A stretch of DNA of 44,165 nucleotides from JBDRED01 sp043820025 [NCBI: Elusimicrobiota bacterium] (GTDB taxonomy: Bacteria > RUG730 > JBDRED01), in contig JBDRED010000029.1 in NCBI GenBank assembly GCA_043820025.1, positions 1-44,165 on the forward strand. Direction: 5' to 3'. Of this stretch, positions 16,488 to 43,155 are shown one piece after another (the stretch's first letter is position 1; each line of letters opens with the position of its first letter). The position numbers and the translations under genes were made by a program. The notes beneath the pieces were generated by a model, which saw only the letters and a list, made by a program, of their open reading frames with translations, was not told where the DNA came from and ran no database searches.

Positions 16488-17255
16488 ATGAAACAGAAAA
16501 TAATAAGATCGTTGTCTCCTAAAGAGGTGGATTTATTGAGCCGGCTGGAATTTGAAGGGAAAGCGGTTTATACTAAAGAAGAGTTGGTATCATTTTGTAA
16601 AGATAAACAACAAGGCCAATATCTTATTAAAAAATTACTTGAAAAGAAAAGGCTAAAAAAAATTATAAAAAATACATACTTTGTTATTCCAATCAAAGCT
16701 CCACAAGGTAAATGGATGCCTAATGAATATGTTATTGCAAAAATTCTAGTCAAAGACTCAAACTATTATATTGGTTATTCTAGTGTATTTAACTCTTATG
16801 GATTTACAGAACAAGTCGCTCAAATGATTTATGTAATAAATGATAAATATTCTTTCAGCAAAATAATAAATGGAATAAAGTTTAAAGCTGTTAAGGTTAA
16901 ATCAAAAAAAATATATGGTTTAGATACTAGAGTAATCGGTGGGGAAAATATTTCTTTTCCATCAAAAGAAAGAGCATTAATCGACGCGTTCGAGTTCTAT
17001 AATACTGCTAAAGCAGAGGCTATATTAGTTAATCAGTTTAAAAAAATAAACATTGAAACACTTATTGATTATGTATCATTGTATCCTGTGCAAATTGTTC
17101 GTAGACGCATGGGGTATTTTCTTGAAAAACTTAAGGTGCCTAAAAAAACGCTAAATAAAATTGATGTAGGAAAGTCCGGATATTCTTTTTTGCGCGATAA
17201 TGATGTAAAAAAGGGGGCTATTAATAAGAGATGGAGAGTGATAGTTAATGGATAG
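16488..17255 (+). CDS. abiEi: AbiEi family antitoxin (type IV toxin-antitoxin)
   Basis: 255 residues. An N-terminal winged-helix region (about 10-65, including a recognition-helix-like lysine-rich stretch) is followed by the AbiEi core with YIGYSSVFNSYGFTEQ and the FPSKERALIDAF segment typical of the family. In known systems AbiEi counteracts the AbiEii nucleotidyltransferase and represses the operon through its winged helix. The start has AAGGGTG upstream. It overlaps the toxin gene by 8 bases. The pair sits between housekeeping genes (nifJ and miaB) and is more AT-rich than both, consistent with acquisition. Confidence 0.85.
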   Translation: MKQKIIRSLSPKEVDLLSRLEFEGKAVYTKEELVSFCKDKQQGQYLIKKLLEKKRLKKIIKNTYFVIPIKAPQGKWMPNEYVIAKILVKDSNYYIGYSSVFNSYGFTEQVAQMIYVINDKYSFSKIINGIKFKAVKVKSKKIYGLDTRVIGGENISFPSKERALIDAFEFYNTAKAEAILVNQFKKINIETLIDYVSLYPVQIVRRRMGYFLEKLKVPKKTLNKIDVGKSGYSFLRDNDVKKGAINKRWRVIVNG

Positions 17256-18102
17256 GGAAAAGCTTCAAAGAACAATACCTTTTATTGCGGAAAAAAATAA
17301 ATTTAGATTAGAAACTATTGAAAAAGATTATTATTTAACTTTAATACTAAATAGCATTACTACACATTTAAGCGACAAGATTATTTTTAAGGGGGGTACA
17401 TTATTAAATAAGGTATATCTGGGTTATCATAGATTAAGTGAAGATTTAGATTTTTGCTTTTTTAGTACGACAAATATTAAAACACGAGCTCAGCGTTCTC
17501 GGGCCGTAGCCCCAATACGAAAGAAAATGAGAGAATTTCTAAATTATTTAAATTTAAAAAGTGATCAGATTGAAGGAATAGGATTTAATAATTCGACTCA
17601 GTATGTGTTTAATATATTTTATCCGTCCTTTGTTACCGGCCAAGAAGACAAAATAAAGTTAGAAATCTCAATTAGGCAAAATCCTGTTGAGAAGCCAATA
17701 TATAATACTATTAAACATTTTTATCAAGACCCTTTTTCGGGTAAGGATTTGATTCCGAGAAATAAGGTATTATCTTTAACCTATAATGAGACTGTTGCAG
17801 AAAAGTTAAAAGCTGCAATTACACGAAAGAATATAGCAATTCGGGATTATTATGATCTGTGGTTTCTTTCAGAACAAAAATTTGATTTTGAGAATCCACA
17901 ATTTATTTCAATATTTAAAACAAAGCTTGAAGAAGAAAATTATAGAAATAACTTTTCCTATAATTTTGGGCTAAACGAAGATTCAATAAATTCGCTATAT
18001 GAACAAGTGAAAACAGAACTTATTCCGGTTATTCGCACAGGAGAGAGGTTTGATCTAAATATGGTCTTTCGAAGATTTAATAAAATAATGAAAAATCTAT
18101 AA
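17248..18102 (+). CDS. abiEii: AbiEii/AbiGii family nucleotidyltransferase toxin
   Basis: 284 residues. The polymerase-beta-like nucleotidyltransferase signature is intact: KGGT at 48-51 and SEDLDF at 64-69, providing the two catalytic Asp residues. The LTYNETVAEKLKAA and IRDYYDLW segments are characteristic of the C-terminal half. Known members modify or block translation factors or tRNA when not held in check by AbiEi. Overlapping starts with the antitoxin imply coupled expression. Both active-site motifs are present, so the toxin is probably functional. Confidence 0.88.
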   Translation: MDREKLQRTIPFIAEKNKFRLETIEKDYYLTLILNSITTHLSDKIIFKGGTLLNKVYLGYHRLSEDLDFCFFSTTNIKTRAQRSRAVAPIRKKMREFLNYLNLKSDQIEGIGFNNSTQYVFNIFYPSFVTGQEDKIKLEISIRQNPVEKPIYNTIKHFYQDPFSGKDLIPRNKVLSLTYNETVAEKLKAAITRKNIAIRDYYDLWFLSEQKFDFENPQFISIFKTKLEEENYRNNFSYNFGLNEDSINSLYEQVKTELIPVIRTGERFDLNMVFRRFNKIMKNL

Positions 18103-26537: not shown

Positions 26538-29500
26538 ATGAGAAAGAAGGTATCCTTGGGAATTTTTCTTTCCTTAATAATGTTTTTAACCGGTTTAGTA
26601 ATTACAAATTTATATGCGGTTGAGTATGGTATTATAAGCGGAACTATTACTTATAGCGGCGAAAAGCCGGGAGATTTATATGTATTCGCATTTTCAAACT
26701 GGCCTGAGAATGGAGATCCTTTTCCGTATATGGTTGGCACAAGCGCATATCCGGTATTTAGTAGTCCGCAATTTTATGAAATGAGCGTTGAGACAGGCAC
26801 AGAGCGCTGGGTAGCCGCGTACTTAGACAGTAATGGTGATGGAAATCTTAACGAAGAACTTGGAGAAGCAAAGGGGCAGTATGAGGGAGAGGTTCCATTT
26901 TTATTGTCCACAAGCGGAAGAACCGGTATAGATTTTTTAATCGTTGATGGGGATGTTAGCGGCAAGATCTCAGGTAATTTGAGCTATAGCGGCTCAAGAG
27001 TAGGAACATATACTGTAAACATCACAACAGATCCATACGGATACTCTCGTGAAGATCAGATTGAACAAGGCAGCGCAGGGGCATATACGACTAATTGGGT
27101 GTCTACAGGCTCATATTATGCGCGCGCGTGGATAGATGAGGATGCAGATCAAAATTGGGATAGAGATGAAGCGTTTGGTATTTATCAGTACGGAGTTAAT
27201 GCAAGAAAATTAGTTCCTGTGACAGACACAAACACAGTTACGGGGATTGATATCACAATAAATGATCCGGGCGCAATGCAGGGAAATGTTACGATAAATG
27301 ATCCGTCGCCTGTCGGAGATGTCTTTATAGTGTTTTCAGATACTCCGTCATTTAACGGCGGAAATGTTGCTGATCAGCATTTCTACCATACATCGGGTTC
27401 GTATTCTCAAGACTTGCCTCCCGGAGACTATTATATCTTTTCGTGGCTTGATAAAAATTCCAATTATCAGAAGGACGCAGATGAGGTTTACGAGCAGTCA
27501 GGGCCTATAACTGTCACAGAGGGCGGAACCGCTATTCATGATTTAAACCTTACTATTCCTGATTCAAGCATATCCGGCGCGGTTACTTACAGCGGCGCAT
27601 ATACAGGAGATGTAATTATTTATGCAAATACAAATGGGGATATTTATACAATTAGTTACAGCACTACATTCGCATATACCGGAACCGGAGATTATAATTT
27701 CAAGATAACTTTGTCGCCGGGCGAAAATTATTACATTTACAGCTTTGTAGACAGGGATAGTAATAACAATTATAACAATATTAATGAACCGTTTGGCGAG
27801 TATACAGGGAATCCGGTTTATCTTACCGCTTCTCCTGCAACAGGCATAAACTTTACTGACAACGATCCTTCTGCGGATCCCGGAGATACAATAACAGGTA
27901 TAGTTAACTTTTCATCAACCGTTGTGGACACATCAAATCTGGGCAGTGGCATATATGTCAGCGCTTTTTTAAATCCAAATCTTGAGGGTAATTATGACGC
28001 GTATGTGCAGATTACTTCAACAGGCCAGTATTATATGCACGAGCTTACGCAATACACAACATATTATTTGGCAGCGTATGTTGATCAAAATTATGATTAT
28101 ATATCAAATCCGTCAGAGCCTAAGGGAATTTATGACGTAAATGGTGATGGTACTCCTGATCCTGTCTATATTTCAAATCAATCAAAAGCTAATATTGATA
28201 TTTCGTTAATCCAAAAAACGAGCGGCAATGGCAGTATTGGCGGATATATTAATTACACAGGCGTCTCATCCGGAACTGTTAAGGTGCAATATTGGCGCGG
28301 ATATATTTCAGGTTCGCCGGATGGTTCTATTACAGTCGGAGGATCTGAATTATTTACTGTCGCAGGATCGAGCTATACATTAAATGACCGGAGATATGAT
28401 ATTACAGGGCTTATTGAGGATAGTTATTTTCTAGAGACATATATTGATCTAAATAGTAACGGCAGTCTTGACGCAGGCGAACCGTCAGGGAAATATGGCA
28501 ACAGCTATGCCTGGTCTATCTGGGTTCCGGACGGAGGATTTTCAGATTACATAAACATGACAATCAAAGAGCCATTCTCCGGAAAACTGCGCGGCAGAGT
28601 CGCAGTAAGCACAGCTGTAGCGCAGGCGGTTGGGAATGTAACGGTTAGGTTGTACGAGGAAGGCAGTAATGCCGTAGTTTCCAGCTGTACCTCTGTTGGT
28701 ACTTGGAATAACGCGGATGGACATGACTATAACTTTGAATTTGCTAATATTTCGGTAGTGCAAAATAAATATTACAGACTTCAAGCAAGCTCTGCAGGCC
28801 GGATGATAGAGCCGTGGGATGTATGGTTTACTTTCTCGGATCAAGCTGTAAACTATTTAGAGGATAGAGCGTCTTGGGCTGATCCATTAAAGGTTTATCC
28901 TGGCGCAAGCCTTTCAGTTGATAATATATCAATCGGCAATGGAGTAGATGTTTCGACCTATGCTGTGACAATTAGTCCGGATAGCGACGGTAGTAAAGAC
29001 AATGCGAGTATCGCATTTGATATATCAGCTGTAAATCTTGCAGATACTTCTTATGGTTCAGCAGCCTACAGGCTCATAATTGATACTAATAAAGACGGAG
29101 TTTTCTCAACGTTTGACTGGAGTCAGGTGAGCTGGGACGAGCAGGGCAATCCGCTTTATGATGGAGTAAAGAGAACGTGGGATGAAATGTATAGAATTAT
29201 TGCTGAGAACAGCGATTGGTCTTACCAGGGTTCGGTTTATGGCGATGGCGTACATTCCGAGGAAATAAACTGGGAAGGCAGAGACACAAACTGGAACGCT
29301 CTCCCTAAGGGAACTTATGCTGTGAAACTGCAGATAATAAGCAAGCCATGGTGGGACGAAACAGAGACGATCTTTGACTATGACAATAAGATAGCTGAGA
29401 TTACAATAGACGCTGTTGAGATAACGGGACGTGTGACATACTCATTAGCAGGCTCAACTCAGACCTTTGCTGTTAAGGGCGCGAGAGTAGAGGCGGGCGG

Positions 29501-32500
29501 TATGCAGGCATGGGGCAGCGCTTATACAGATTCAAACGGAAACTATAAGGTCAGCGGGTTAAAGGCCGGATATTACTGGATGGGCGTGCAGGCCGCAGGT
29601 TTTACAAGCGCGTATAAAGAAAATGTTGAGGTAGGCGCTGCAGGCGCATCGAATATTAATTTTATAATGGAAAAAGGCGGAAAACTTGAGGGAACAATAA
29701 AATTATCAGGCGGCGCGTTCCAGGCATATACTGACAGGTGGGGCTATACTGTTGACAGACTATACGGCTCTGTAAACGCGTGGTCAGAAACCGGCCCGAG
29801 CTATGGATGGAGCGAGTTTGTTATTTATGCAGGAACTGACACAGCTAAGTTTGAAATGAGTTTAGCGCCCGGAGAATATAAGTTAAGAGCTGAAGCGCCG
29901 GATTATGTAAGCCAGACTTTGAGCGTCACAATAACTGCGCAGGGAGCAGTATTAAATATTTCCATGGCAAAGTCAAAAAAAATCACAGGCCTTATCAAAC
30001 TTCCTGACGGCGATACAGCGCCTGCCGGAGGTTTGCGGATTGACGCAAGCGCGAATTCTTTTGATAACAGAAACTTTGGATGGGGGGGAGGCTTTATTGA
30101 GGCTGGCAAGAGTTCAACTACATTTGAAATAAATAGTGTCGCTGTCAGCACATATACAGTCAGAATCAGATGCCAGGAGTTTATAGAAAAGGTTGTAAAT
30201 AATGTGATAGTGCCTTCAGCAGTCAGCAGTGTTAATATCGGAGAGATTCAGTTTAGCAAAGGAAGCAGGATTAAAGGCGAGCTTAGAATCGAAGGCGATA
30301 CGTCGGGTATGCAGCCATTCCCGGTTGGAATTAACGCGTACTCGCAGTCTCTGAACGCAGGCAATGGAACTCAGGTGCAGATGTCAACGAGCGCAGCCGT
30401 ATCAATTTCATCGTATGTAATATCCGGCCTGTCAGCAGGCAGTTATGGCCTGAACTCTTGGATGAACGGATTTGAGATGGAAAATTCTCCTCTAATTGTA
30501 AGTTTAGACGGAAGTTCGGATAAATTTCAAAACATAACATTAAAAGCGTATTCAGGAAAGATACAGGGGAGAATAACAGGGTTCACGGACTACACAAAGG
30601 TATATGTTTCAGCTGTACTGCCTTGGTGGAGCTCAACGAACAGCGATGGCCAGCCTATTAAAACCGTTATTAATAGCGAAGGGTATTATGAATTATCAGG
30701 ATTAGGCACAGGAGAATATATTGTCACAGCTAATGAATATGATACAGCTCCAAACGGCTGGACTCCCGGCGTTCCGACCGGGCAGTATGGCGAAGCAGTG
30801 GAGCGCGTAGGCGTAGCAAATGGCGAGACAACCGGAGATATTAATATGTCTCTTGGCAGCGGCAATACTATACAAGGGCTTATTGTAAAGGGAGCAGGCG
30901 TTACTTATGATCTTTCCGCGTCTACAATCCAAATCATGGCTGTGCCTATGAAGTTCAGATGGTACAACATGGAGGAAACTAAATTTGCGGCAGCAGAAAT
31001 AGTCAGCTCAAATGCGTCTTCAGCAACGTACAGAATTTCAGGCCTTGCAGATGACCTGTATTTACTGCAGTTTGACGGAGACTTAAACGATGACGATAAA
31101 GACGAGGTTGCAGGACAGCAGACATCTATCTATATTTCCAATGGAGAGACAAAAACTCAAAATATAGTAATTAAAAAAGGTTATGTGATTACCGGCAATG
31201 TTGAAAGGCCAAAAACAGGAGATGATAATTTTACGGTACAGCTCTTTAAAGCTGACGATAATAGCCATAATGCCATTTCATATGCTGAATTAACATTTCA
31301 AAATTATAATGTCAGCGGTAATTATTATCAAAATCAAAATAAATTATCATTGCCATTCAGTCTTGGCCCTGTTGCGCCCGGCAATTATATTATTAATGTT
31401 TATCCGTCGAGGGAAAACTATAAGGTTGCTTATGCGGCTGTTACGGTATCTTCATCAGACGTGAAGATGGCAAATATACGAATGAGTAAGGGAGCTACAA
31501 TTACCGGAACACTTGTCGACGGAGACACAGGCAAGCTTATTACTAAAGATGACAATATAAAAATTAGGTGCGAAGCTCGGCCTTGGGTTGAAGGCGGATA
31601 TAAAGAAATTGGCAATGAGCAAAATTATTGGAATTCCGAATGGGGAGCAAATCCGATGGAAATCAGCAGCGGCACGTTTAAGCTTCCGAACCTGCCTGCA
31701 GGAAATTATTTTGTTAGATTAGAAAGCAGCGGCGGAGATTCAGCAGGCGATAAGGTTTATACGACTGTTCTCATTGCAGGGATCACTGTGCCTGATACAA
31801 CTGTAGATGTTTCAATTGGAACCGTTAAATTATATGAGGGCGTGACAATTTCAGGCAGAGTAACGGATGCGTCCGGCGCAGCGCTTGCGAACATTAGGAT
31901 GGTAGGAATACCTTCTTCAAGCCATGGCTCGAGCGTGTCTGTAAATACTAAAACAGACGGCAAAGGATATTATGTATTACGAGGTATTGACCCTAATATT
32001 AAATATTGGGAAATAACAGCCGCGTATCGTCCGGACTGGAGGGAAGGCATAAAGGTTGAGTATGGCGATGAGGTCATAGATAATGTCGCGCCAAAATCAA
32101 AGGATATTAATTTTATTCTGAAAAAAGCAGATGCGAATCTGGAAGGCCGGGTGAATGCGCCTGCAGGAAAAAGCCTTGTTTCGCCGTTTGATAATGACGC
32201 GCCAATGGCAGTAATTCTCCTTACTAAAAAAGGAAAGGTTTATAAAAATCCTATGGGCGGAATAGAGGCCCGCACTGCTCCGGACGGACACTTCTTTGTT
32301 CAGGGATTAGTTCCGGGAAAATACTCTCTTAAGATTATGTCAAAAGGCCTTGCTACAGCTGTTACAGATGTAATGCTGATTTCCGGAGAGACAAATACTA
32401 CATTTGTGACTAAACCAATAGCTCTTACGGAAGGCGGGAAGGTTACCGGATTAATCAGAGATAAGGAAGGCCGGAAAATAACTACTTCGCAGGTTGAGAT

Positions 32501-34211
32501 GGTTGTAGCTGTGCAAAAAGGCACATTCATACTTGCATTTGGAAGTCTTGAGGTTGATCCGTCGACAAACGAGATTAATTCATACAGGATCGAAGGTTTA
32601 AAATCAGGAGTCGATTATTATCTGATTATGGCTGCTGCTGAAGGCAGTGACCTGCGCACATCAACATTTACAGTAAGAGTAAATAACACAAATGATGTCA
32701 TAACACAGGATCTGGTTTATACGGACACTCCGCCCGGCTTTATTGTTCAGATCGCAAGAGATAAAAATAATGATAAGAAATTTTTACTATCATTGTTTTC
32801 GACTGAGGAATTGCTTGAGTCCGAAGGCAATAAAATTATCACAAAGAAGGCGGGGCAGGCCAGCGGTAATCTTCCGGAAGCAGAAATATATTATGCGAAA
32901 TCTAAGGATTCGCTTACAGCCGCATATTATGTGGGAGACACAGGATTCGATTTTGATAACAAGTATTTTGTATTACAAATAAAAGGGCATGACTTAGCGG
33001 GCCAGGAGACGAGTATTGAGCTGAGCGTAAAAATAGGTATGCAGGCAAAAAATGAGGGAGATATTAATCCTCTGCTCGGCGGAAGCGTAAAGCTGGGAGA
33101 GGGCGATGTAACGAGCATTTATATACCCGGCGGAGCAATTGCCACGGACGATGTAGGTAATGTGAAGACAATTATTATTAAGGTAGACGCGTCTGAAATA
33201 GGCCCCGGCGGAGCGCCTAAGCGTCCGGCCTGCGCGTATCCTTTTGAAATTCCTAAACTGCCGAAAGGCACGCAGGTAACTGATAAGATGACTCCATCGA
33301 GTACGCTCAATAATACTTTGCAGAGCGGATACTATGAAATAGAGGTGTGGTCTGTTTCCGGATCTGCGCTCGGAGCTCTATTGAATCTCGGTGAAGACAG
33401 TTCTGCAAAGGTTACGATTCAATATGACACAAATACAGTAACATCGCAGCTGCTGAATAAACTGGATGTGGCATATTACAACGAAACTACAGGTATATGG
33501 CAAAAAGAAAATAGCGAGAGGATAATTGACTCAAAGAACGGCACAATCTCAGTAACAATTAATCACTTGTCAAAGTTTGCGGCGTTTACCGACGTCTCTG
33601 CTCCCGGAGTGCCTGCAGGCCTGGTTATAAACAGTCTTGGCGCAAATAGCTGTAAGGTTGTCTGGAATAAGGTAAATGACAGCGATCTTGCAGGCTATAA
33701 AATTTGGAGAAGCACAATTTCCACGGACGCAGGTTTTACAAATATCGCGCTGGTTGGAAAATCAAATGCGGACACCGGTGAATACACAGACACCGGCCTC
33801 GACTCAAAATTAACTTACTATTACAAAGTTTCAGCCTATGACGACGCTACAACGCCTAATGAGAGCGCTATGTCCGAGAGCGTTTCATGGTCCGGCGCTT
33901 ATAACGGGCCATTCATAGCATACATATTCCCGTCGCCGTTTAATATGTCAGTATCGAAAACCGCTTCGCTCAGATACCGCGTTCCCGGAGACGGAACAAA
34001 GACAATGAAGATAACAGTCAAAATTTATAATATTGCCGGCGAGCTGGTAAGAACATTAATGGATGAAGTTGAAAAGAATGACGGTATTGAGGAGATAGAA
34101 GTATGGGATGGCGCAAATGACAGCGGAAATACAGTTGCAAGCGGCGTATATATTTACTACTTTAAAGCAGGAGATTATTCGCAGATTAAAAAATTTGCAG
34201 TTGTTAAATAG
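26538..34211 (+). CDS. Giant secreted repeat protein with carboxypeptidase-regulatory-like domains, FnIII and FlgD-like C-terminal domain
   Basis: 2557 residues with a signal peptide (hydrophobic 8-24, cleavage near NLYA). The N-terminal ~660 residues are six beta-rich repeats of about 100-120 residues, each opening with a SGxxTYSG-like strand and ending with a loop of EF-hand or dockerin type (DSNGDGNLNEE at 97; equivalents starting at Asp200, 305, 405, 516 and 637). The middle holds many carboxypeptidase-regulatory-like Ig units (for example TDSNGNYKVSGLKAGYYW) with KGxxITGxV openings. A fibronectin type III domain lies at about 2354-2455. The last ~97 residues (from IFPSPFN) are a FlgD-like domain with KIYNIAGELVRTL and ASGVYIYYFKAG, resembling type IX sorting domains. 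Start has CAGGAGGAA. Probably an adhesin or sheath-like surface protein exported with the PorV-like partner downstream. Confidence 0.85.
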   Translation: MRKKVSLGIFLSLIMFLTGLVITNLYAVEYGIISGTITYSGEKPGDLYVFAFSNWPENGDPFPYMVGTSAYPVFSSPQFYEMSVETGTERWVAAYLDSNGDGNLNEELGEAKGQYEGEVPFLLSTSGRTGIDFLIVDGDVSGKISGNLSYSGSRVGTYTVNITTDPYGYSREDQIEQGSAGAYTTNWVSTGSYYARAWIDEDADQNWDRDEAFGIYQYGVNARKLVPVTDTNTVTGIDITINDPGAMQGNVTINDPSPVGDVFIVFSDTPSFNGGNVADQHFYHTSGSYSQDLPPGDYYIFSWLDKNSNYQKDADEVYEQSGPITVTEGGTAIHDLNLTIPDSSISGAVTYSGAYTGDVIIYANTNGDIYTISYSTTFAYTGTGDYNFKITLSPGENYYIYSFVDRDSNNNYNNINEPFGEYTGNPVYLTASPATGINFTDNDPSADPGDTITGIVNFSSTVVDTSNLGSGIYVSAFLNPNLEGNYDAYVQITSTGQYYMHELTQYTTYYLAAYVDQNYDYISNPSEPKGIYDVNGDGTPDPVYISNQSKANIDISLIQKTSGNGSIGGYINYTGVSSGTVKVQYWRGYISGSPDGSITVGGSELFTVAGSSYTLNDRRYDITGLIEDSYFLETYIDLNSNGSLDAGEPSGKYGNSYAWSIWVPDGGFSDYINMTIKEPFSGKLRGRVAVSTAVAQAVGNVTVRLYEEGSNAVVSSCTSVGTWNNADGHDYNFEFANISVVQNKYYRLQASSAGRMIEPWDVWFTFSDQAVNYLEDRASWADPLKVYPGASLSVDNISIGNGVDVSTYAVTISPDSDGSKDNASIAFDISAVNLADTSYGSAAYRLIIDTNKDGVFSTFDWSQVSWDEQGNPLYDGVKRTWDEMYRIIAENSDWSYQGSVYGDGVHSEEINWEGRDTNWNALPKGTYAVKLQIISKPWWDETETIFDYDNKIAEITIDAVEITGRVTYSLAGSTQTFAVKGARVEAGGMQAWGSAYTDSNGNYKVSGLKAGYYWMGVQAAGFTSAYKENVEVGAAGASNINFIMEKGGKLEGTIKLSGGAFQAYTDRWGYTVDRLYGSVNAWSETGPSYGWSEFVIYAGTDTAKFEMSLAPGEYKLRAEAPDYVSQTLSVTITAQGAVLNISMAKSKKITGLIKLPDGDTAPAGGLRIDASANSFDNRNFGWGGGFIEAGKSSTTFEINSVAVSTYTVRIRCQEFIEKVVNNVIVPSAVSSVNIGEIQFSKGSRIKGELRIEGDTSGMQPFPVGINAYSQSLNAGNGTQVQMSTSAAVSISSYVISGLSAGSYGLNSWMNGFEMENSPLIVSLDGSSDKFQNITLKAYSGKIQGRITGFTDYTKVYVSAVLPWWSSTNSDGQPIKTVINSEGYYELSGLGTGEYIVTANEYDTAPNGWTPGVPTGQYGEAVERVGVANGETTGDINMSLGSGNTIQGLIVKGAGVTYDLSASTIQIMAVPMKFRWYNMEETKFAAAEIVSSNASSATYRISGLADDLYLLQFDGDLNDDDKDEVAGQQTSIYISNGETKTQNIVIKKGYVITGNVERPKTGDDNFTVQLFKADDNSHNAISYAELTFQNYNVSGNYYQNQNKLSLPFSLGPVAPGNYIINVYPSRENYKVAYAAVTVSSSDVKMANIRMSKGATITGTLVDGDTGKLITKDDNIKIRCEARPWVEGGYKEIGNEQNYWNSEWGANPMEISSGTFKLPNLPAGNYFVRLESSGGDSAGDKVYTTVLIAGITVPDTTVDVSIGTVKLYEGVTISGRVTDASGAALANIRMVGIPSSSHGSSVSVNTKTDGKGYYVLRGIDPNIKYWEITAAYRPDWREGIKVEYGDEVIDNVAPKSKDINFILKKADANLEGRVNAPAGKSLVSPFDNDAPMAVILLTKKGKVYKNPMGGIEARTAPDGHFFVQGLVPGKYSLKIMSKGLATAVTDVMLISGETNTTFVTKPIALTEGGKVTGLIRDKEGRKITTSQVEMVVAVQKGTFILAFGSLEVDPSTNEINSYRIEGLKSGVDYYLIMAAAEGSDLRTSTFTVRVNNTNDVITQDLVYTDTPPGFIVQIARDKNNDKKFLLSLFSTEELLESEGNKIITKKAGQASGNLPEAEIYYAKSKDSLTAAYYVGDTGFDFDNKYFVLQIKGHDLAGQETSIELSVKIGMQAKNEGDINPLLGGSVKLGEGDVTSIYIPGGAIATDDVGNVKTIIIKVDASEIGPGGAPKRPACAYPFEIPKLPKGTQVTDKMTPSSTLNNTLQSGYYEIEVWSVSGSALGALLNLGEDSSAKVTIQYDTNTVTSQLLNKLDVAYYNETTGIWQKENSERIIDSKNGTISVTINHLSKFAAFTDVSAPGVPAGLVINSLGANSCKVVWNKVNDSDLAGYKIWRSTISTDAGFTNIALVGKSNADTGEYTDTGLDSKLTYYYKVSAYDDATTPNESAMSESVSWSGAYNGPFIAYIFPSPFNMSVSKTASLRYRVPGDGTKTMKITVKIYNIAGELVRTLMDEVEKNDGIEEIEVWDGANDSGNTVASGVYIYYFKAGDYSQIKKFAVVK

Positions 34212-34249
34212 TAAAAAATCGGCTAAAATTATCAATGGAGGATAATGAG

Positions 34250-35179
34250 ATGAAAATAACAAAAATTATTGTTTCCTCAGTCCTGGTTCTAAATCTGGTA
34301 CAGGTGTGTTTTGCCGTGAACAGCAAGGTTGGCACAACAGGCGCTCAATTTTTAAAGATTGGCACAGGCTGCAGGCCTATTGCAATGGGCGGCGCGCAGG
34401 CGGCTCTTGCAGATGATGTGCATGCAATGTACTGGAATCCGGGAGGGCTTGGCCATGTAGAAGCTAGAGAGGTTATGGCTCAGCATATTATTTGGTTTCA
34501 GGATATTGCTTATGAATATCTTGCTGTTGCGTATCCTTTGGAAACAATCGGCACGTTTGGATTTTCCGCGTCATATGTTTCTGCAGGAGATATAGAGAAA
34601 AGAACGAGCGACACGAATGATCCTGAAGGCACATACACAGCTAATGATTTGGCTGTTGGAGTGAGTTATGGAAGGATGCTTGGAAGAAAGATCGGAGTAG
34701 GATTAAATTTAAAATACATAAAAGGCGTGATTGATAATTACAGCGCTACAGCTTTTGCGGTTGATCTTGGCGCGTTATATCATCCCAATAAAAGTAAATT
34801 ATCCGTAGGGCTTGCTGTGCAAAATATTGGCAGTGAGTTGAAATATATCAACGAGGGCGATCCTCTGCCTTTGAATATAAAACTGGGATTTGGTTATAGG
34901 ATGCTCAGGGATGAGGCGCTCACATTTGCTTTAGATGTTAATTACCCAAATGATAATGATATTAACGCAGGAGTTGGCGCTGAGTATGTTTTAGAGGTGG
35001 GCAGGTCAATAAAACTGCCGCTTAGGGTTGGATACAAAACACTAAATGATTTTGATACGATCGATGGCTTAAGCGCGGGCGTTGGATTTAAAATAGAAAG
35101 GTACAGCTTAGATGTAGCGTGGGTTCCATATGGAGACCTGGGTGATACATACAGAATATCGTTAATGGCGAAATTTTAG
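34250..35179 (+). CDS. PorV/PorQ-family outer-membrane barrel (UPF0164-like)
   Basis: 309 residues from the ATG at 34250, 8 bases after GGAGG (34237-34241); the ATG at 34235 overlaps that site and is rejected. Signal peptide to about QVCFA. The mature start GAQFLKIGTGCRPIAMGGAQAALADDVHAMYWNPGGLG is the hallmark of the PorV/PorQ/UPF0164 group, and the protein ends in Phe as barrels do. In Bacteroidetes PorV shuttles cargo with a C-terminal sorting domain in the type IX system; here it directly follows a giant protein ending in such a domain, so it may be the cargo's partner. That is inference; core type IX genes are not in the window. Confidence 0.85.
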   Translation: MKITKIIVSSVLVLNLVQVCFAVNSKVGTTGAQFLKIGTGCRPIAMGGAQAALADDVHAMYWNPGGLGHVEAREVMAQHIIWFQDIAYEYLAVAYPLETIGTFGFSASYVSAGDIEKRTSDTNDPEGTYTANDLAVGVSYGRMLGRKIGVGLNLKYIKGVIDNYSATAFAVDLGALYHPNKSKLSVGLAVQNIGSELKYINEGDPLPLNIKLGFGYRMLRDEALTFALDVNYPNDNDINAGVGAEYVLEVGRSIKLPLRVGYKTLNDFDTIDGLSAGVGFKIERYSLDVAWVPYGDLGDTYRISLMAKF

Positions 35180-38248: not shown

Positions 38249-38276
38249 TTGACAATACCAAAAAACAGTGTATAAT
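38249..38276 (+). promoter_or_regulatory. Promoter of the DUF4258 toxin-antitoxin pair
   Basis: TTGACA (38249-38254) and TATAAT (38271-38276) with a 16-bp spacer, both perfect hexamers. The predicted start of transcription is about 38283. Confidence 0.8.
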
Positions 38277-38282
38277 ATACAT

Positions 38283-38552
38283 ATTAAGTACATATATGGT
38301 AAACACATAATACAACGAATGAGTGAAAGAAAAATTTTAAAGGAAGAAATAGAAATATTATTATCTAACGAACAGCCATCAATTATCGTTCCTAGTAAAA
38401 CGGATAAAGATGTTGAATTAATAATGGGGTTTGTATTAGAAAGAGGTTTAGTTGTAATTTATAATAAAAAAACAGGTGTTCTAATTACTGTAAGACAGAT
38501 GAGAGATAAAGAGAAAAAATTGTTTGAGGAGGTCTTGTATGACAAAGAGTAA
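38283..38552 (+). CDS. DUF4258-family toxin-like protein; start codon uncertain (possible non-ATG)
   Basis: About 90 residues. The pattern YGKHIIQRMSERKILKEEIEILL is the N-terminal signature of DUF4258 proteins, small RelE/HigB-like toxins or nuclease relatives, followed by beta-strands ending LVVIYNKKTGVLITVRQM. The upstream in-frame GTG (38268) lies inside the -10 box and cannot be the start. The first downstream ATG (38319) would delete the conserved His and Arg. The best natural start is an ATT at 38283 (giving MKYIYGKH), exactly at the predicted transcript start; this is unusual and uncertain. It overlaps the next gene by 14 bases. Confidence 0.6.
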   Translation: MKYIYGKHIIQRMSERKILKEEIEILLSNEQPSIIVPSKTDKDVELIMGFVLERGLVVIYNKKTGVLITVRQMRDKEKKLFEEVLYDKE

Positions 38553-38838
38553 ATATCACAAAAAAAAATTAACATCAGCCAAGAAGGTAAAAGACATGGC
38601 AGCATATTATGATGATGTGGATATTGAAAAAGCATTTGATTTTTCAAAAGCTGTAAAGAATAAAGGAACTGTTAAGCGTGTTAATATGTTAGTGCCGCAT
38701 GATTTGTATGTTGAAGCTGAAAAGATAGGAAGAATGACAGGCACAGGTTATCAAAACGCGTTAAAAACAGCAATAGCCATAGGCTTACATCGTCTAATGT
38801 TCGAACTAAAAAATCCGGGAAAAATTGTAGGCACTTAA
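38539..38838 (+). CDS. Ribbon-helix-helix/BrnA-like antitoxin
   Basis: 99 residues from the ATG at 38539, preceded by GAGGAGG (38526-38532); a TTG at 38524 overlaps that site. The N-terminal ~45 residues are basic and probably disordered, as in toxin-binding tails. The segment TVKRVNMLVPHDLYVEAEK...GYQNALKTAIAIGL (about 44-83) fits a ribbon-helix-helix DNA-binding unit of the CopG/BrnA type. Overlap with the DUF4258 gene and order toxin-first match BrnT/BrnA-like modules. It should repress the shared promoter. Confidence 0.7.
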   Translation: MTKSKYHKKKLTSAKKVKDMAAYYDDVDIEKAFDFSKAVKNKGTVKRVNMLVPHDLYVEAEKIGRMTGTGYQNALKTAIAIGLHRLMFELKNPGKIVGT

Positions 38839-38946: not shown

Positions 38947-39000
38947 TTTGTATACATTGCAGCCCTCAATGTATACAAACCATGGTACTTTGTATACATT
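38947..39000. repeat. Box array I: three TTTGTATACATT boxes at 21-bp steps
   Basis: GTATAC cores begin at 38950, 38971 and 38992, spacing exactly 21 and 21. Flanks alternate: TTTGTATACATT, then AATGTATACAAA, then TTTGTATACATT. The whole block is a recognisable copy of the first three boxes of array II (shared CTCAAT and GTACTTTGTAT). Confidence 0.85.
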
Positions 39001-39092: not shown

Positions 39093-39132
39093 TACCTAAT
39101 AAAACCAAATTCCCGGTTGACAAATTAAGAAG

Positions 39133-39290
39133 TTTGTATACATCTACGATCTCAATAGATACAAAACATTGTACTTTGTATCTATTTCAAGCAAAAATAT
39201 ATACAAACTATAGAATTTCGTTTACATTTCTTGACATAATGTATACAAAGTGCTATATTTTGTATACATTAGAAAAAAAAAGGATACAAA
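39133..39290. promoter_or_regulatory. Box array II: eight GTATAC-type boxes in 21-bp phase upstream of fic
   Basis: Cores start at 39136, 39157, 39178, 39199, 39220, 39241, 39262 (all 21 bp apart) and 39282 (20 bp). Core sequences: GTATAC, AGATAC, GTATCT, ATATAC, GTTTAC, GTATAC, GTATAC, GGATAC. Flanks alternate in orientation (TTTGTATACATT versus AATGTATACAAA). The sixth box lies in the spacer of the fic promoter and the seventh over its transcription start. Likely cooperative repressor binding every two helical turns. Confidence 0.85.
39231..39259 (+). promoter_or_regulatory. Promoter of the first fic gene
   Basis: TTGACA (39231-39236) and TATATT (39254-39259), spacer 17 bp; predicted start near 39266, inside a box. 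A second TTGACA at 39117 with TACATC (39139-39144) at 16 bp could be an alternative. Confidence 0.8.
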
Positions 39291-39292
39291 CT

Positions 39293-40441
39293 ATGAAAAT
39301 AATAGAAATAGGAAAATATATTCAACAAAAAGAAGGATTTAAGGCTTTTGTTCCAAGTTCGTTCCCACCAAAAGATGGTTTTGAATTTGATGCGTCAGTA
39401 TTGAAGAAAAACGATCAGGCTACAAGACTGCTTGGAAAGCTTGACGGTATTACTAAACTATTGCCAGATGCTGATTTTTTCTTATTGATGTATTTAAGAA
39501 AAGATGCGGCATCTTCAAGTCAAATTGAAGGTACACGAGCAACGATGATTGACGCAATAGAAGCAGATGCAAAAATTAATGCAAATATTCCGGAAGATGT
39601 AGATGATATTTTGCACTATATAAAAGCTCTAAATTATGGAATACAGAGAATGGAAGTTCAGAATTTTCCTCTAAGTCTTCGTTTTATTAGAGAGTTACAT
39701 ACTAAATTAATGGATAAAGCTAGAACAACTCATTTTGCTGATCCCGGAGAATTTCGTAAAAGTCAAAATTGGATTAGCGGTACTCGTGTAGATAATGCTT
39801 TATATGTTCCTCCACCAGTACATGAAATGCAAAATGCTTTAACTGATTTAGAGAAATTTTTACATGCTGATGATTTTACATTAACTCTTATTAAAGCTGG
39901 GATTATTCATGCTCAATTTGAAACAATCCATCCTTTTCTTGATGGCAATGGCAGAACAGGAAGAATGTTGATTACTTTTTATTTATGGAAAGAAGGTTTT
40001 TTAGAAAAGCCAGTTTTGTTTTTATCATCTTTTTTTAAAAAACATCAAAAACTTTATTACGAAAGACTTTCCGGATATCATAATGGCTTGGTCTCTGATT
40101 GGGTAGATTTTTTTCTTGATGGAGTAATAGAAATAGCTAATGAAGCTATAGCTATTGTTGATAAAATTACACAACTTCGAGAAGAAGACATAAAAAAAAT
40201 ACAAAAGCTTGGAACTCGCGCATCGGAAAGTGCGGCAAAGCTCTTGCCAGAACTTTACGCGCAGCCTATTGTAAGTGTTTCTCTAGTACAAAAATGGACA
40301 GGATTTACGAGAGCAGGAGCAGAGCGTGTAATTAATCGTTTTATAGATATGGAGATACTATCTCCTAAAAAGAAAGATACAAAATATGGTCAATCATATG
40401 TTTATAAAAAATATTTAGAAATTTTTAAGGATAGTAAATAA
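39293..40441 (+). CDS. Fic-family AMPylase-like protein with C-terminal winged helix
   Basis: 382 residues from the ATG at 39293 (AAAAGG upstream). The frame is open back to 39134, but those codons are the 21-bp box array read as protein. N-terminal domain with the inhibitory-helix motif Ser75-SQI-Glu79-Gly80, then the complete Fic motif HPFLDGNGRTGR at 213-224 with the catalytic His213. So it is a self-inhibited Fic protein that normally transfers AMP from ATP to a protein. The C-terminal ~65 residues (from LPELYAQPIVSVSLVQKWTGFT) are a winged-helix domain, which makes it a candidate for binding its own upstream boxes. The next gene starts 38 bases downstream. Confidence 0.9.
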   Translation: MKIIEIGKYIQQKEGFKAFVPSSFPPKDGFEFDASVLKKNDQATRLLGKLDGITKLLPDADFFLLMYLRKDAASSSQIEGTRATMIDAIEADAKINANIPEDVDDILHYIKALNYGIQRMEVQNFPLSLRFIRELHTKLMDKARTTHFADPGEFRKSQNWISGTRVDNALYVPPPVHEMQNALTDLEKFLHADDFTLTLIKAGIIHAQFETIHPFLDGNGRTGRMLITFYLWKEGFLEKPVLFLSSFFKKHQKLYYERLSGYHNGLVSDWVDFFLDGVIEIANEAIAIVDKITQLREEDIKKIQKLGTRASESAAKLLPELYAQPIVSVSLVQKWTGFTRAGAERVINRFIDMEILSPKKKDTKYGQSYVYKKYLEIFKDSK

Positions 40442-40479: not shown

Positions 40480-41217
40480 TTGAAAATGAAACAAACCGGT
40501 AATTTGGTTTCTCAATATTTAGAAAATATTTCCAGCAAGATTTTAGAAGAACATGCGGATATAATAAAAAAGTATGTTAATAAAAGACATGGTATATATG
40601 CTTTGTATAAAAATAATAAGCTGTACTATGTTGGATTGGCGTCTAATTTGCGAAATAGGTTAAGACATCACTTAAAGGATAGGCATGCTAATAGATGGGA
40701 TAGTTTCAGTATTTACTTAATAGTGGGAGAAAAACATTTACATGAATTAGAGGCATTATTATTGCGTGTTATTACTAAGAAAGGGAATAAACAAAAAGGA
40801 AAATTTAAAAAAGCAGAAGATTTAAAAAAACAATTAAGCTGTGATTTGAAGAATAAACAAAAGGTGGAATATAATCGTATATTAGGAAAAAATTCTTGTG
40901 TTGTGAGAAATAGAGTTGATGAAAAATACAAGAAAGAACAAGGAAGAAACCCTATATTAGCTCAATACACAAGTAAGCGTTTTCAAATTCGTTTCAAGTA
41001 TAAAGGAAAACTTTATATCGCGTATGTTAGACAGAATGGAACTATAACATTTGATCAAAGAAGTTCTAAAGTGAAAGATTCGAAAAATAAAATTTACACT
41101 TCTCCGTCCTCTGCTGCGTCTGCTGTTGCCAATGGACGACTGAATGGTTGGATAAATTGGAAATATGAACGAGCTCCAGGCGATTGGGTTTTGCTGGATG
41201 AATTAAGGATGAAATAA
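40480..41217 (+). CDS. GIY-YIG nuclease with RAMA-like C-terminal domain
   Basis: 245 residues counted from the TTG at 40480, 9 bases after GAGG (40467-40470); an ATG at 40486 is the alternative. The GIY-YIG catalytic core has GIY at 38-40, YVG at 50-52, the catalytic Arg in SNLRNRLRHH (58-60) and the metal-binding Glu91 in HELEALLLR. After a basic linker comes a domain from about 160 to the end, with YKGKLYIAYV, SPSSAASAVANGRLNGWINWK and a final WVLLDELR; this fits RAMA domains, associated with adenine methylases and modification-linked nucleases. A DNA-cleaving role in defence is likely by family and by neighbourhood; target and partner are unknown. Probably co-transcribed with fic. Confidence 0.75.
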   Translation: MKMKQTGNLVSQYLENISSKILEEHADIIKKYVNKRHGIYALYKNNKLYYVGLASNLRNRLRHHLKDRHANRWDSFSIYLIVGEKHLHELEALLLRVITKKGNKQKGKFKKAEDLKKQLSCDLKNKQKVEYNRILGKNSCVVRNRVDEKYKKEQGRNPILAQYTSKRFQIRFKYKGKLYIAYVRQNGTITFDQRSSKVKDSKNKIYTSPSSAASAVANGRLNGWINWKYERAPGDWVLLDELRMK

Positions 41218-41994: not shown

Positions 41995-43155
41995 ATGAAT
42001 GAACAATTAATAAAAAAAGTTATGACCTATAAATCAGGACAATTTGTATTTAGTAGAAAGTATGATGATGCTGTTATATCAAAATATCTTGTACAGGTTG
42101 AATTGCTGTATGATACAGTGATGAATGTTCCTATTTTACCACAAATGCTTGTTAGATTAGATGAGGAATTGATTATACGTTCAATATGCGGCACAGCAGG
42201 TATAGAAGGAAATATTATTGATGAAGAAAAGGTAAAGCAGATAATTAACGGGAATGATCAACAGAAAAGTACAGAAAGAAAACAGAGAGAGATAGAAAAT
42301 CTTAAAAGAGTTTACAAATATATAAATGATTTAGCTGAGAAAAATGAGAACAATGAGATAACAGAAGATATCATAAAAAAATGTCACAACATTATAACAG
42401 AAGGTATAAATTACAATAATAATTCTCCTGGTCAATATAGGAATTCAAAGGTATATGTTAACAATGAAGAACATGGCGGTGTGGACGTTCCACCTAAAAT
42501 AATTGAAGATATTAGAAATTTAATGGAACAATTTATTTCTTGGATTAATTCAGAAGAAATGAAATCTATTAACCCCATACTTAGAGCTGGGATTGCGCAT
42601 TATCATTTATCCAGGATACATCCATTTGCAGATGGTAACGGTAGAACAGTTCGCGCAATTGAAGCATTTATATTAATTTCATCTGGCATAAAATATCTTC
42701 CTTTGCTTCTTTCAAATTATTATTACAAAAATATTGATGAATATTTTTGGGCATTTTCAAATACCAGAAACAATAAAGAATATGATATCAGCGCTTTTTT
42801 AGAGTTTGTTTTAAAAGGGTGTTTAGAATCTTTGCTAGAAATAAAGACTTATGTTTTTGTATTTATAAATAGGCTTGTATTAAGGGATTATTTCCATGTC
42901 TTAAAAGAAAAACGGGATATAAATCAAAGACAGTTTGATCTGTTAAATATTATGTTAGATGGGAACATTGATTTTAGTTTACCTGATTTATTAAATAAAT
43001 CCCAATTTAAGGGTTTATACGCAAAGCGCAGTCTAAAAACAGTTCAAAGAGATGTGAAGAATCTAGAGAAAAACAAATTGATATTTTTAAAAGAAGAAAA
43101 ATATCTTCTTAATATTAATATTTTGAAGAGTTTAAGCTTTAAAAAATTAAAATGA
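41995..43155 (+). CDS. Fic-family protein with C-terminal winged helix
   Basis: 386 residues, start with AGAAGG 8 bases upstream. The inhibitory motif is Thr67-AGI-Glu71-Gly72-Asn73 and the catalytic Fic motif HPFADGNGRTVR lies at 209-220, both complete, so it is a self-inhibited Fic enzyme of the same overall design as the one at 39293 but clearly a different lineage (little shared sequence outside motifs). The C-terminal ~80 residues (INQRQFDLLNIMLDG... KRSLKTVQRDVKNLEKNKLI) form a winged-helix DNA-binding domain. Such Fic proteins commonly accompany type I restriction loci, consistent with the hsdR-like fragment just downstream. Confidence 0.88.
   Translation: MNEQLIKKVMTYKSGQFVFSRKYDDAVISKYLVQVELLYDTVMNVPILPQMLVRLDEELIIRSICGTAGIEGNIIDEEKVKQIINGNDQQKSTERKQREIENLKRVYKYINDLAEKNENNEITEDIIKKCHNIITEGINYNNNSPGQYRNSKVYVNNEEHGGVDVPPKIIEDIRNLMEQFISWINSEEMKSINPILRAGIAHYHLSRIHPFADGNGRTVRAIEAFILISSGIKYLPLLLSNYYYKNIDEYFWAFSNTRNNKEYDISAFLEFVLKGCLESLLEIKTYVFVFINRLVLRDYFHVLKEKRDINQRQFDLLNIMLDGNIDFSLPDLLNKSQFKGLYAKRSLKTVQRDVKNLEKNKLIFLKEEKYLLNINILKSLSFKKLK

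Follow-up and report, generated by a model that had tools for sequence, protein, structure and literature searches.

A phased box array over the promoter of a SoFic-like fic gene, a probable operator for its own Fic protein

Introduction

In the Phd-Doc toxin-antitoxin system the toxin has a Fic fold and its expression is set by the occupancy of a palindromic operator, the DNA being bound by a separate antitoxin, unlike the self-binding that we propose here for another Fic protein. The fic gene in question lies in a contig of an Elusimicrobiota bacterium (JBDRED010000029.1, assembly GCA_043820025.1), and an array of short boxes of alternating orientation covers its promoter. The whole stretch of DNA analysed, 44,165 nucleotides, is called the window below.

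The principle of self-repression by a Fic protein is known, since CccR of Yersinia pseudotuberculosis is a proven Fic/helix-turn-helix (HTH) self-repressor, a dimer that represses by way of inverted repeats close to the -35 and -10 of its own promoter (PMC9755527). In the part of that report available to us, CccR is a type VI secretion effector, and its operator consists of two 10-bp repeats separated by 26 bp; an array of at least four boxes goes unreported there. CccR shares with the window Fic a class II inhibitory motif, a C-terminal HTH and inverted repeats over its own promoter, and the two proteins are kin in sequence (7xux, phmmer E 2.4e-14). The letters of the two operators differ.

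Two further systems are close. SoFic and EcSofic belong to a family of dimeric antiphage AMPylases with a C-terminal domain (PMC12249575). The accessible part of this 2025 paper terms the regulation of the SoFic toxin elusive, and describes a 47-residue antitoxin, AS1, encoded downstream of EcSofic. As of 2023, DNA binding by SoFic had not been demonstrated, according to the available part of a study of CbFic2 (PMC10628234). CbFic2 itself is a class II Fic whose C-terminal winged helix binds DNA; DNA of about 20 bp promotes the dimer and is required for full stimulation, and its authors propose that AMP is taken off by dimers on DNA and put on by monomers. In the same part of the report CbFic2 is tested with random DNA sequences, its target is given as histone H3, and no operator is described. 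It is akin to the window Fic over residues 35-372 (8cil, phmmer E 1.8e-11).

The initial annotation of the window knew of no described Fic system with such an array. For the array itself this stands: the open-access literature (preprints and most subscription papers were outside the scope) yielded no array operator for any Fic gene and no SoFic operator, and the available parts of PMC12894286 and PMC2701414 describe none. Self-repression through inverted repeats is, however, already known from CccR. What is unreported in the literature searched is the array operator and its conserved layout in a SoFic-like family, and likewise any binding of DNA by SoFic relatives of the present kind.

Results

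The fic gene occupies 39293..40441 on the plus strand and encodes a SoFic-family AMPylase of 382 amino acids. Its promoter region holds eight boxes of 12 bp akin to TTTGTATACATT, with an orientation that flips from each box to the next; six steps of 21 bp connect boxes 1 to 7, and a step of 20 bp leads to box 8. The box scan places box 1 (TTTGTATACATC) at 39133..39144 on the plus strand, box 2 (TTTGTATCTATT) at 39154..39165 on the minus strand, box 3 (again TTTGTATCTATT) at 39175..39186 on the plus strand and box 4 (TTTGTATATATT) at 39196..39207 on the minus strand. Box 5 (TTCGTTTACATT, 39217..39228, plus strand) stands immediately 5' of the -35 hexamer, at position -76 as in most close orthologs, and is the counterpart of the first box in the usual four-box operator. 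Box 6 (TTTGTATACATT, 39238..39249, minus strand) lies within the -35/-10 spacer, likewise in orthologs; box 7 (TTTGTATACATT, 39259..39270, plus strand) covers the predicted transcription start; box 8 (TTTGTATCCTTT, 39279..39290, minus strand) overlaps the Shine-Dalgarno sequence, AAGGA before the ATG at 39293. From box 1 to box 8 the mismatches to TTTGTATACATT number 1, 2, 2, 1, 2, 0, 0 and 2. Among 60 first-order Markov copies of the window none had an alternating 21-bp chain (at most two mismatches) of more than one box, against seven boxes in the real window, which bears out the alternating array as the initial annotation had described it. Its placement of box 6 in a 17-bp promoter spacer and of box 7 over the start site held up as well: the sigma-70-type promoter match (39231..39259, plus strand), TTGACA at 39231, 17 bp and TATATT at 39254-39259, agrees with the consensus at 11 of 12 positions, and is a consensus match only.

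A second, shorter array had been overlooked. It consists of three perfect boxes 21 bp apart (38947..39000), beginning at 38947 (plus), 38968 (minus) and 38989 (plus). Because the segment 38930-39110 aligns with 39110-39300 at a score of 31, far above 200 mononucleotide shuffles (mean -2.8, standard deviation 4.7, maximum 10), we read this part as a probable tandem copy of the promoter region, partial and decayed. No stop codon interrupts the fic frame (39134-40441) across the main array, where each 21-bp step is seven codons, so that gene callers could place the fic start 53 codons too early.

What kind of Fic protein is encoded? The Fic_N and Fic domains are both present, and the PADLOC SoFic model matches the protein along its whole length (E 1.3e-110, residues 15-379; the library gives no cut-off). 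The strict SoFic equivalog of NCBIfam, NF046030, scores it at 139.8 bits, below the cut-off of 550. Judged from these sequence models, the window Fic shares a wider family with Shewanella SoFic and is not the same protein. The Fic motif, in general form HPFx[D/E]GNGRxxR, appears as HPFLDGNGRTGR and is found in 152 of 158 aligned homologs; the class II N-terminal inhibitory motif ([S/T]xxxE[G/N]) reads SSQIEG in the window Fic and is matched at that place in all 158.

An AlphaFold2 model built from eight sequences has an overall pLDDT of 65, a moderate quality, and we therefore use no more of it than the fold class and the C-terminal part. Helices at residues 308-323, 329-336 and 340-352 and a strand at 368-370 give a winged-helix-like arrangement. 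The predicted winged-helix domain covers residues 318-378 (40244..40426, plus strand), at a block pLDDT of 72-87 with a drop to a low 58 for residues 361-370 in the wing. Within it the predicted recognition helix is residues 340-352 (40310..40348, plus strand), and the wing is residues 364-370 (KYGQSYV; 40382..40402, plus strand). Over its whole length the model matches the SoFic-like structures 7cb8, 3zcn and 3eqx (TM about 0.6), Fic proteins of a kind that carries a C-terminal winged helix; matches to winged-helix repressors are weak (E about 0.2 and above). No counterpart of the EcSofic antitoxin AS1 was recognised after the window fic, where a survey by ORF length, made without AS1 sequence comparison, found no complete ORF of at least 30 amino acids between fic and the next gene.

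Is the array a family trait? A set of 161 fic-like loci was assembled from five phylum-level draws of genomes, four plasmid loci, and the window together with loci found by box pattern. The first draw, in the phylum of the L035 genome, gave a Fic match (E <=1e-20) in 76 of 379 genomes, the best 30 of which became loci at 77% to 36% identity. The other four, from phyla defined only by the seed genomes of L044, L013, L022 and L058, gave matches at 1e-40 in 50/349, 80/345, 50/244 and 31/240 genomes, and the best 30 or so of each were taken. To pass the array test, an upstream had to show four mutually similar alternating boxes, 21 +/- 1 bp apart, between -160 and +30 of the start, and to beat all of 80 shuffles. 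Ninety-one of the 161 fic upstreams passed, so the search of homologous fic loci for a 21-bp period, which the initial annotation had suggested, came out in favour of the array. Control steps of 15, 18, 24, 27 and 30 bp were passed by 18, 19, 11, 10 and 8 of the 161, and a same-orientation control at 21 bp by 17, while of 217 upstream regions belonging to other genes of these loci none passed the array test. When the window and seven pattern-found loci are excluded, 83 of 153 pass, one of which, L062, coincides with pattern locus L035.

Passes come from every source: 25/30, 15/29, 16/30, 8/30 and 18/30 in the five draws, 1/4 among the plasmids, and 8/8 for the window and the pattern-found loci. 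By identity to the window Fic they run 12/13 at 70% or more, 13/15 at 50-70%, 3/5 at 44-50%, 17/42 at 40-44%, 45/82 at 35-40%, and 1/4 below 35%. In sets thinned to less than 90, 70 and 60% protein identity, 83/141, 51/83 and 29/45 pass. The 91 arrays have mostly four boxes (74 loci), with three in 5 loci, five in 9, six in 2, and eight in the window only, whose array is the longest. A promoter match was found in 40 of the 91, with 7 expected from mononucleotide shuffles, and in 29 of these 40 it is box 2 of the four that lies closest to the midpoint of the -35/-10 spacer. The lag profile of all 161 loci has a sharp peak of same-orientation repeats at 40-42 bp; the inverted-repeat profile is broad, an effect of pairing between shifted windows.

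At identities below 65% the layout is often retained with different letters, and the change affects every box of a locus alike. The boxes are TTTGTTGACATC in L066, TTTGTTTACATT in L067, TTAGTATACATT (also given as TTAGTATACAT) in L069 and L075, TTATGTAAATTT in L087, and GGTCCTTATTAT in L096. Some loci that fail the 21-bp test have a related layout, in which a step of 20-21 bp is followed by one of 30-31 bp with the helical phase kept. Thirteen of the 70 negatives fit steps of 21 and then 30-31 bp; control gaps, out of phase or longer, of 15, 26, 36 and 42 bp give 2, 4, 6 and 5, and a gap of 10 gives 12. Eleven of the 13 come from the L022-seeded draw. The variant is seen in L178-L182, L184, L185, L095, L165 and L220, mostly from the draw seeded by a cyanobacterium, and also in Picosynechococcus PCC 7002 (pAQ6) and on Synechocystis pSYSX. 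In a set of 14 loci on named plasmids, seven (L095, L096, L097, L220, L222, L227 and L228) were unmatched by 100 shuffles in at least one of three layouts, that is, with three tests per locus; L095 and L220 share boxes and places. The positions at L222 and L226 are unsure, as there is no annotated fic and the guessed starts are not start codons. The fic homologs of L075 and L077, from the L035-seeded draw, contain in-frame TGA codons, and recoding of TGA is possible.

A scan of genome contigs for the box-pair pattern, made blind to fic, approached the association from the other side. It gave 51 loci. Array analysis was of the 12 with chains of at least three boxes; some of the other 39 served as seeds for the genome draws. 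Eight of the 12 chains lie immediately 5' of a full fic ortholog (identity 71-76%), and the chain of L039 (6444-6660) precedes a fic that is cut off after about 55 codons. The orthologs have four boxes at about -76, -55, -34 and -14, mostly in steps of 21, 21 and 20 bp, with box 2 in the -35/-10 spacer. Seven of the 12 loci are from Patescibacteria-type metagenome-assembled genomes (L015, L020, L034, L035, L036, L039, L053), two are gammaproteobacterial (L044 and L050, Thiomargarita), and three further loci are bacterial. In each of 11 searchable host genomes the exact pattern was found at a single place. Among 16 neighbourhoods compared, fic is the most shared gene (10 loci), and an hsdS-type gene is next (3 loci); antisense frames inside fic and genes common only to the viral loci L003, L006 and L008 were set aside, and other clusters were only pairs. 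At L019, L053 and L097 fic adjoins type I restriction hsdS genes or hsdS fragments. Viral contigs carry the box-pair pattern at nine loci, with three-box chains (at most three mismatches) in L003, L006 and L008. A protein scan of the viral contigs with Fic, sensitive to close relatives only, gave no match, and phage records hold five distant Fic relatives.

Which protein reads the boxes? Were it Fic itself, the letters would be expected to keep closer to its recognition helix than to other parts of the protein, and the change of box letters among loci allows a covariation analysis. In a partial Mantel test, box distance was compared with the distance over a protein segment, with the Fic core distance removed. 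The sets were thinned and chosen by array score, and the set of n=91 (z over 3) differs from the 91 array loci. In that set the recognition helix gave r=0.28, the wing 0.18 and the preceding helices 0.15 (each p=0.001); with n=56 (z over 5) the values were 0.25 (p 0.001), 0.11 (p 0.014) and 0.19 (p 0.001). The whole DNA-binding domain tracks the boxes better than the rest of Fic in these two sets (p 2.5e-4 and 1.3e-3), and not clearly so in the third set of the column scan that follows (p 0.063).

A per-column scan with no region preset gave residue 340 first and residue 342 fourth of 294 columns at n=91, with wing residues 365-367 at ranks 9 to 14. At n=56 residues 342 and 340 were first and second of 297, and among loci below 55% identity (z over 3, n=70) residue 341 was first and residue 345 third of 294. 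Among 331 six-residue windows, 340-345 ranks 1, 3 and 1 in the three sets, and the two better windows of the second set overlap it. The effect is visible at equal core distance (n=91): in the nearest fifth, box distance is 0.38 for pairs alike at residues 340-345 and 0.63 for pairs unlike there; in the farthest fifth the values are 0.63 and 0.69. On inspection by eye, the TTTG boxes of close homologs mostly occur with the wing YGQSY, and TTAG boxes with different ones. From these comparisons the start of the recognition helix, its first six residues, appears as the protein segment that best tracks the box letters beyond overall kinship, and the wing is the next best inside the DNA-binding domain.

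Discussion

Since the box letters track the recognition helix of Fic, the most likely reading is that Fic dimers bind the operator of their own gene and repress it. That the boxes are the fic operator and that the Fic protein is their repressor seems to us highly probable from sequence comparison, and this proposal of the initial annotation, in which Fic's own winged helix is the reader, is the best supported by the homolog arrays, by the absence of passes among 217 other upstreams, and by the covariation. The interpretation in the initial annotation is supported in part, for the polymerisation of a protein along the array and the coupling of AMPylation state to transcription that it also proposed are conjectural. 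How might such an operator work? Each 12-bp box would be read by one C-terminal winged helix, through the start of the recognition helix (about residues 340-345) and the wing (364-367). One Fic dimer would span two neighbouring boxes of opposite orientation, 20-21 bp apart; this distance is two helical turns, so both boxes face the same side of the DNA. Two dimers on four boxes would blanket both promoter hexamers with their spacer, the transcription start and the ribosome-binding site, and such coverage would keep expression of an AMPylating toxin low. The eight boxes of the window, with three more in the probable upstream copy, offer space for four or five dimers, and a steeper, more cooperative shut-off would therefore be expected there. 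The spacing agrees with two precedents: the 70.2 A between the recognition helices of the CccR dimer is, by our own arithmetic, about 20.6 bp of B-DNA, and full stimulation of CbFic2 requires about 20 bp of DNA. Sequence comparison itself establishes the array, its conservation under changing letters, its association with fic and the covariation with the recognition helix; binding, a single dimer for each two boxes, repression and cooperativity are inferred.

Several points weigh against this proposal. The second Fic gene of the window lacks a 21-bp alternating array, and 70 of the 161 fic loci fail the 21-bp test, failures which, apart from the 13 with the 21 + 30-31 bp layout, are unaccounted for. 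A promoter match also occurs in 23 of the 70 loci without an array. The initial annotation held that the same array at unrelated loci without fic would count against a fic operator, and here there are exceptions: eight of the 12 chains precede a full fic ortholog and that of L039 a truncated one, whereas the Fic gene behind the chain of L042 is a different one, and at L020 and L050 the DNA examined at the locus contains no fic. The L020 genome has only distant Fic relatives (28-30% identity). At L050 (7559-7664) three perfect boxes and a promoter-like sequence stand 3' of hsdS, and the next frame is ATPase-like, not fic; there fic may have been lost or replaced, or control may be exerted from a distance. 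In the covariation, kinship was handled by core distance and not by a tree; the segment 340-345 was named after the per-column result had been seen, its edge being taken from the AlphaFold2 model; and columns 105, 106 and 71, outside the DNA-binding domain, rank high too. Among homologs of less than 55% identity (n=45, z over 4) the partial Mantel value for the recognition helix is a weak r=0.08 (p=0.056), with the wing at 0.11 (p 0.045) and the preceding helices at -0.02 (p 0.69). The known structures are a further concern. The recognition helices of the CccR dimer are 70.2 A apart, a distance that its authors, in the accessible part of their report, fit to the 26-bp spacer (PMC9755527), and 12-bp boxes at 20-21 bp steps are unlike that 10-N26-10 operator. 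For CbFic2, the available text states that the crystal dimer would need rearrangement, or the DNA bending, for both HTH domains to sit on about 20 bp (PMC10628234).

Might the array do more than shut the promoter? It could be an antidote as well as an off switch, with Fic dimers on the boxes held quiet and AMP-removing, and with release both freeing AMPylating monomers and opening the promoter. We think this rather unlikely. If true, a phage that degrades or copies DNA could strip Fic from the boxes or dilute it below dimer strength, and the length of the array, usually four boxes and here eight plus three, would set the enzyme reserve. The array is in any case a concrete place for testing the idea of quiet DNA-bound dimers and active monomers put forward for CbFic2 in the part of that report available to us (PMC10628234).

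One might instead suppose that the boxes are bound by a different host regulator, either global or encoded nearby, which thereby controls fic. The arrays of L020 and L050, with no adjacent fic, would suit such a regulator. Against it, no neighbour is shared nearly so often as fic, the exact pattern occurs once per genome in the 11 genomes, and the box letters vary from one fic clade to another and follow the recognition helix of Fic itself, all of which makes a separate regulator improbable. There is very little chance that the boxes work not as DNA sites but as messenger hairpins over the ribosome-binding site. Adjacent boxes are indeed inverted repeats, and the last overlaps the Shine-Dalgarno sequence; yet six of the eight window boxes are upstream of the predicted start site, the window leader from that start folds at merely -1.8 kcal/mol (z -1.2), and the sharp same-orientation peak over the 161 loci is predicted by DNA phasing, not by RNA pairing. 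Scarcely credible, finally, is an array left over from tandem duplication, or made of coding repeats, with no regulatory role, for although there are 54-nt direct repeats at 42-bp spacing, a probable partial copy upstream, and a frame open from 39134 in seven-codon steps, the homolog spacings of 20 besides 21 bp break frame, a promoter match lies inside the array, and the letters remain matched within each locus across wide divergence, which indicates selection.

Self-repression by Fic through these boxes would bear on a common family, as the match counts of the five draws show. The operator letters can be read beside each gene throughout the family, so that nature supplies about ninety recognition helices, each paired with its box, and the DNA-recognition code of these proteins becomes directly testable. 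A relative with the 21+31 layout is on pAQ6 of Picosynechococcus PCC 7002, a laboratory strain.

Other genes in the window

The second Fic gene lies at 41995-43155 and matches PADLOC SoFic at 4e-46; several GACAAA repeats can be seen by eye upstream. Directly 3' of the first fic, at 40480-41217, is a gene with a GIY-YIG catalytic domain, whose DUF4357 and RAMA matches are below cut-off. On the 5' side, a perfect (12/12) sigma-70 promoter match at 38249-38276 coincides with the called start of two paired genes (38249-38838), which encode a 94-aa DUF4258-like protein, just below cut-off, and a 104-aa partner without family; the two may be a toxin-antitoxin pair. Farther away (16488-18102), an AbiEii-type nucleotidyltransferase gene (17248-18102) is overlapped by an upstream gene for a 255-aa protein of no clear family, arranged as in type IV toxin-antitoxin pairs. 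Finally, a gene for a 2557-aa protein with carboxypeptidase-regulatory-like repeats is followed by a PorV/PorQ-family gene (26538-35179), a combination that suggests type IX-like secretion.
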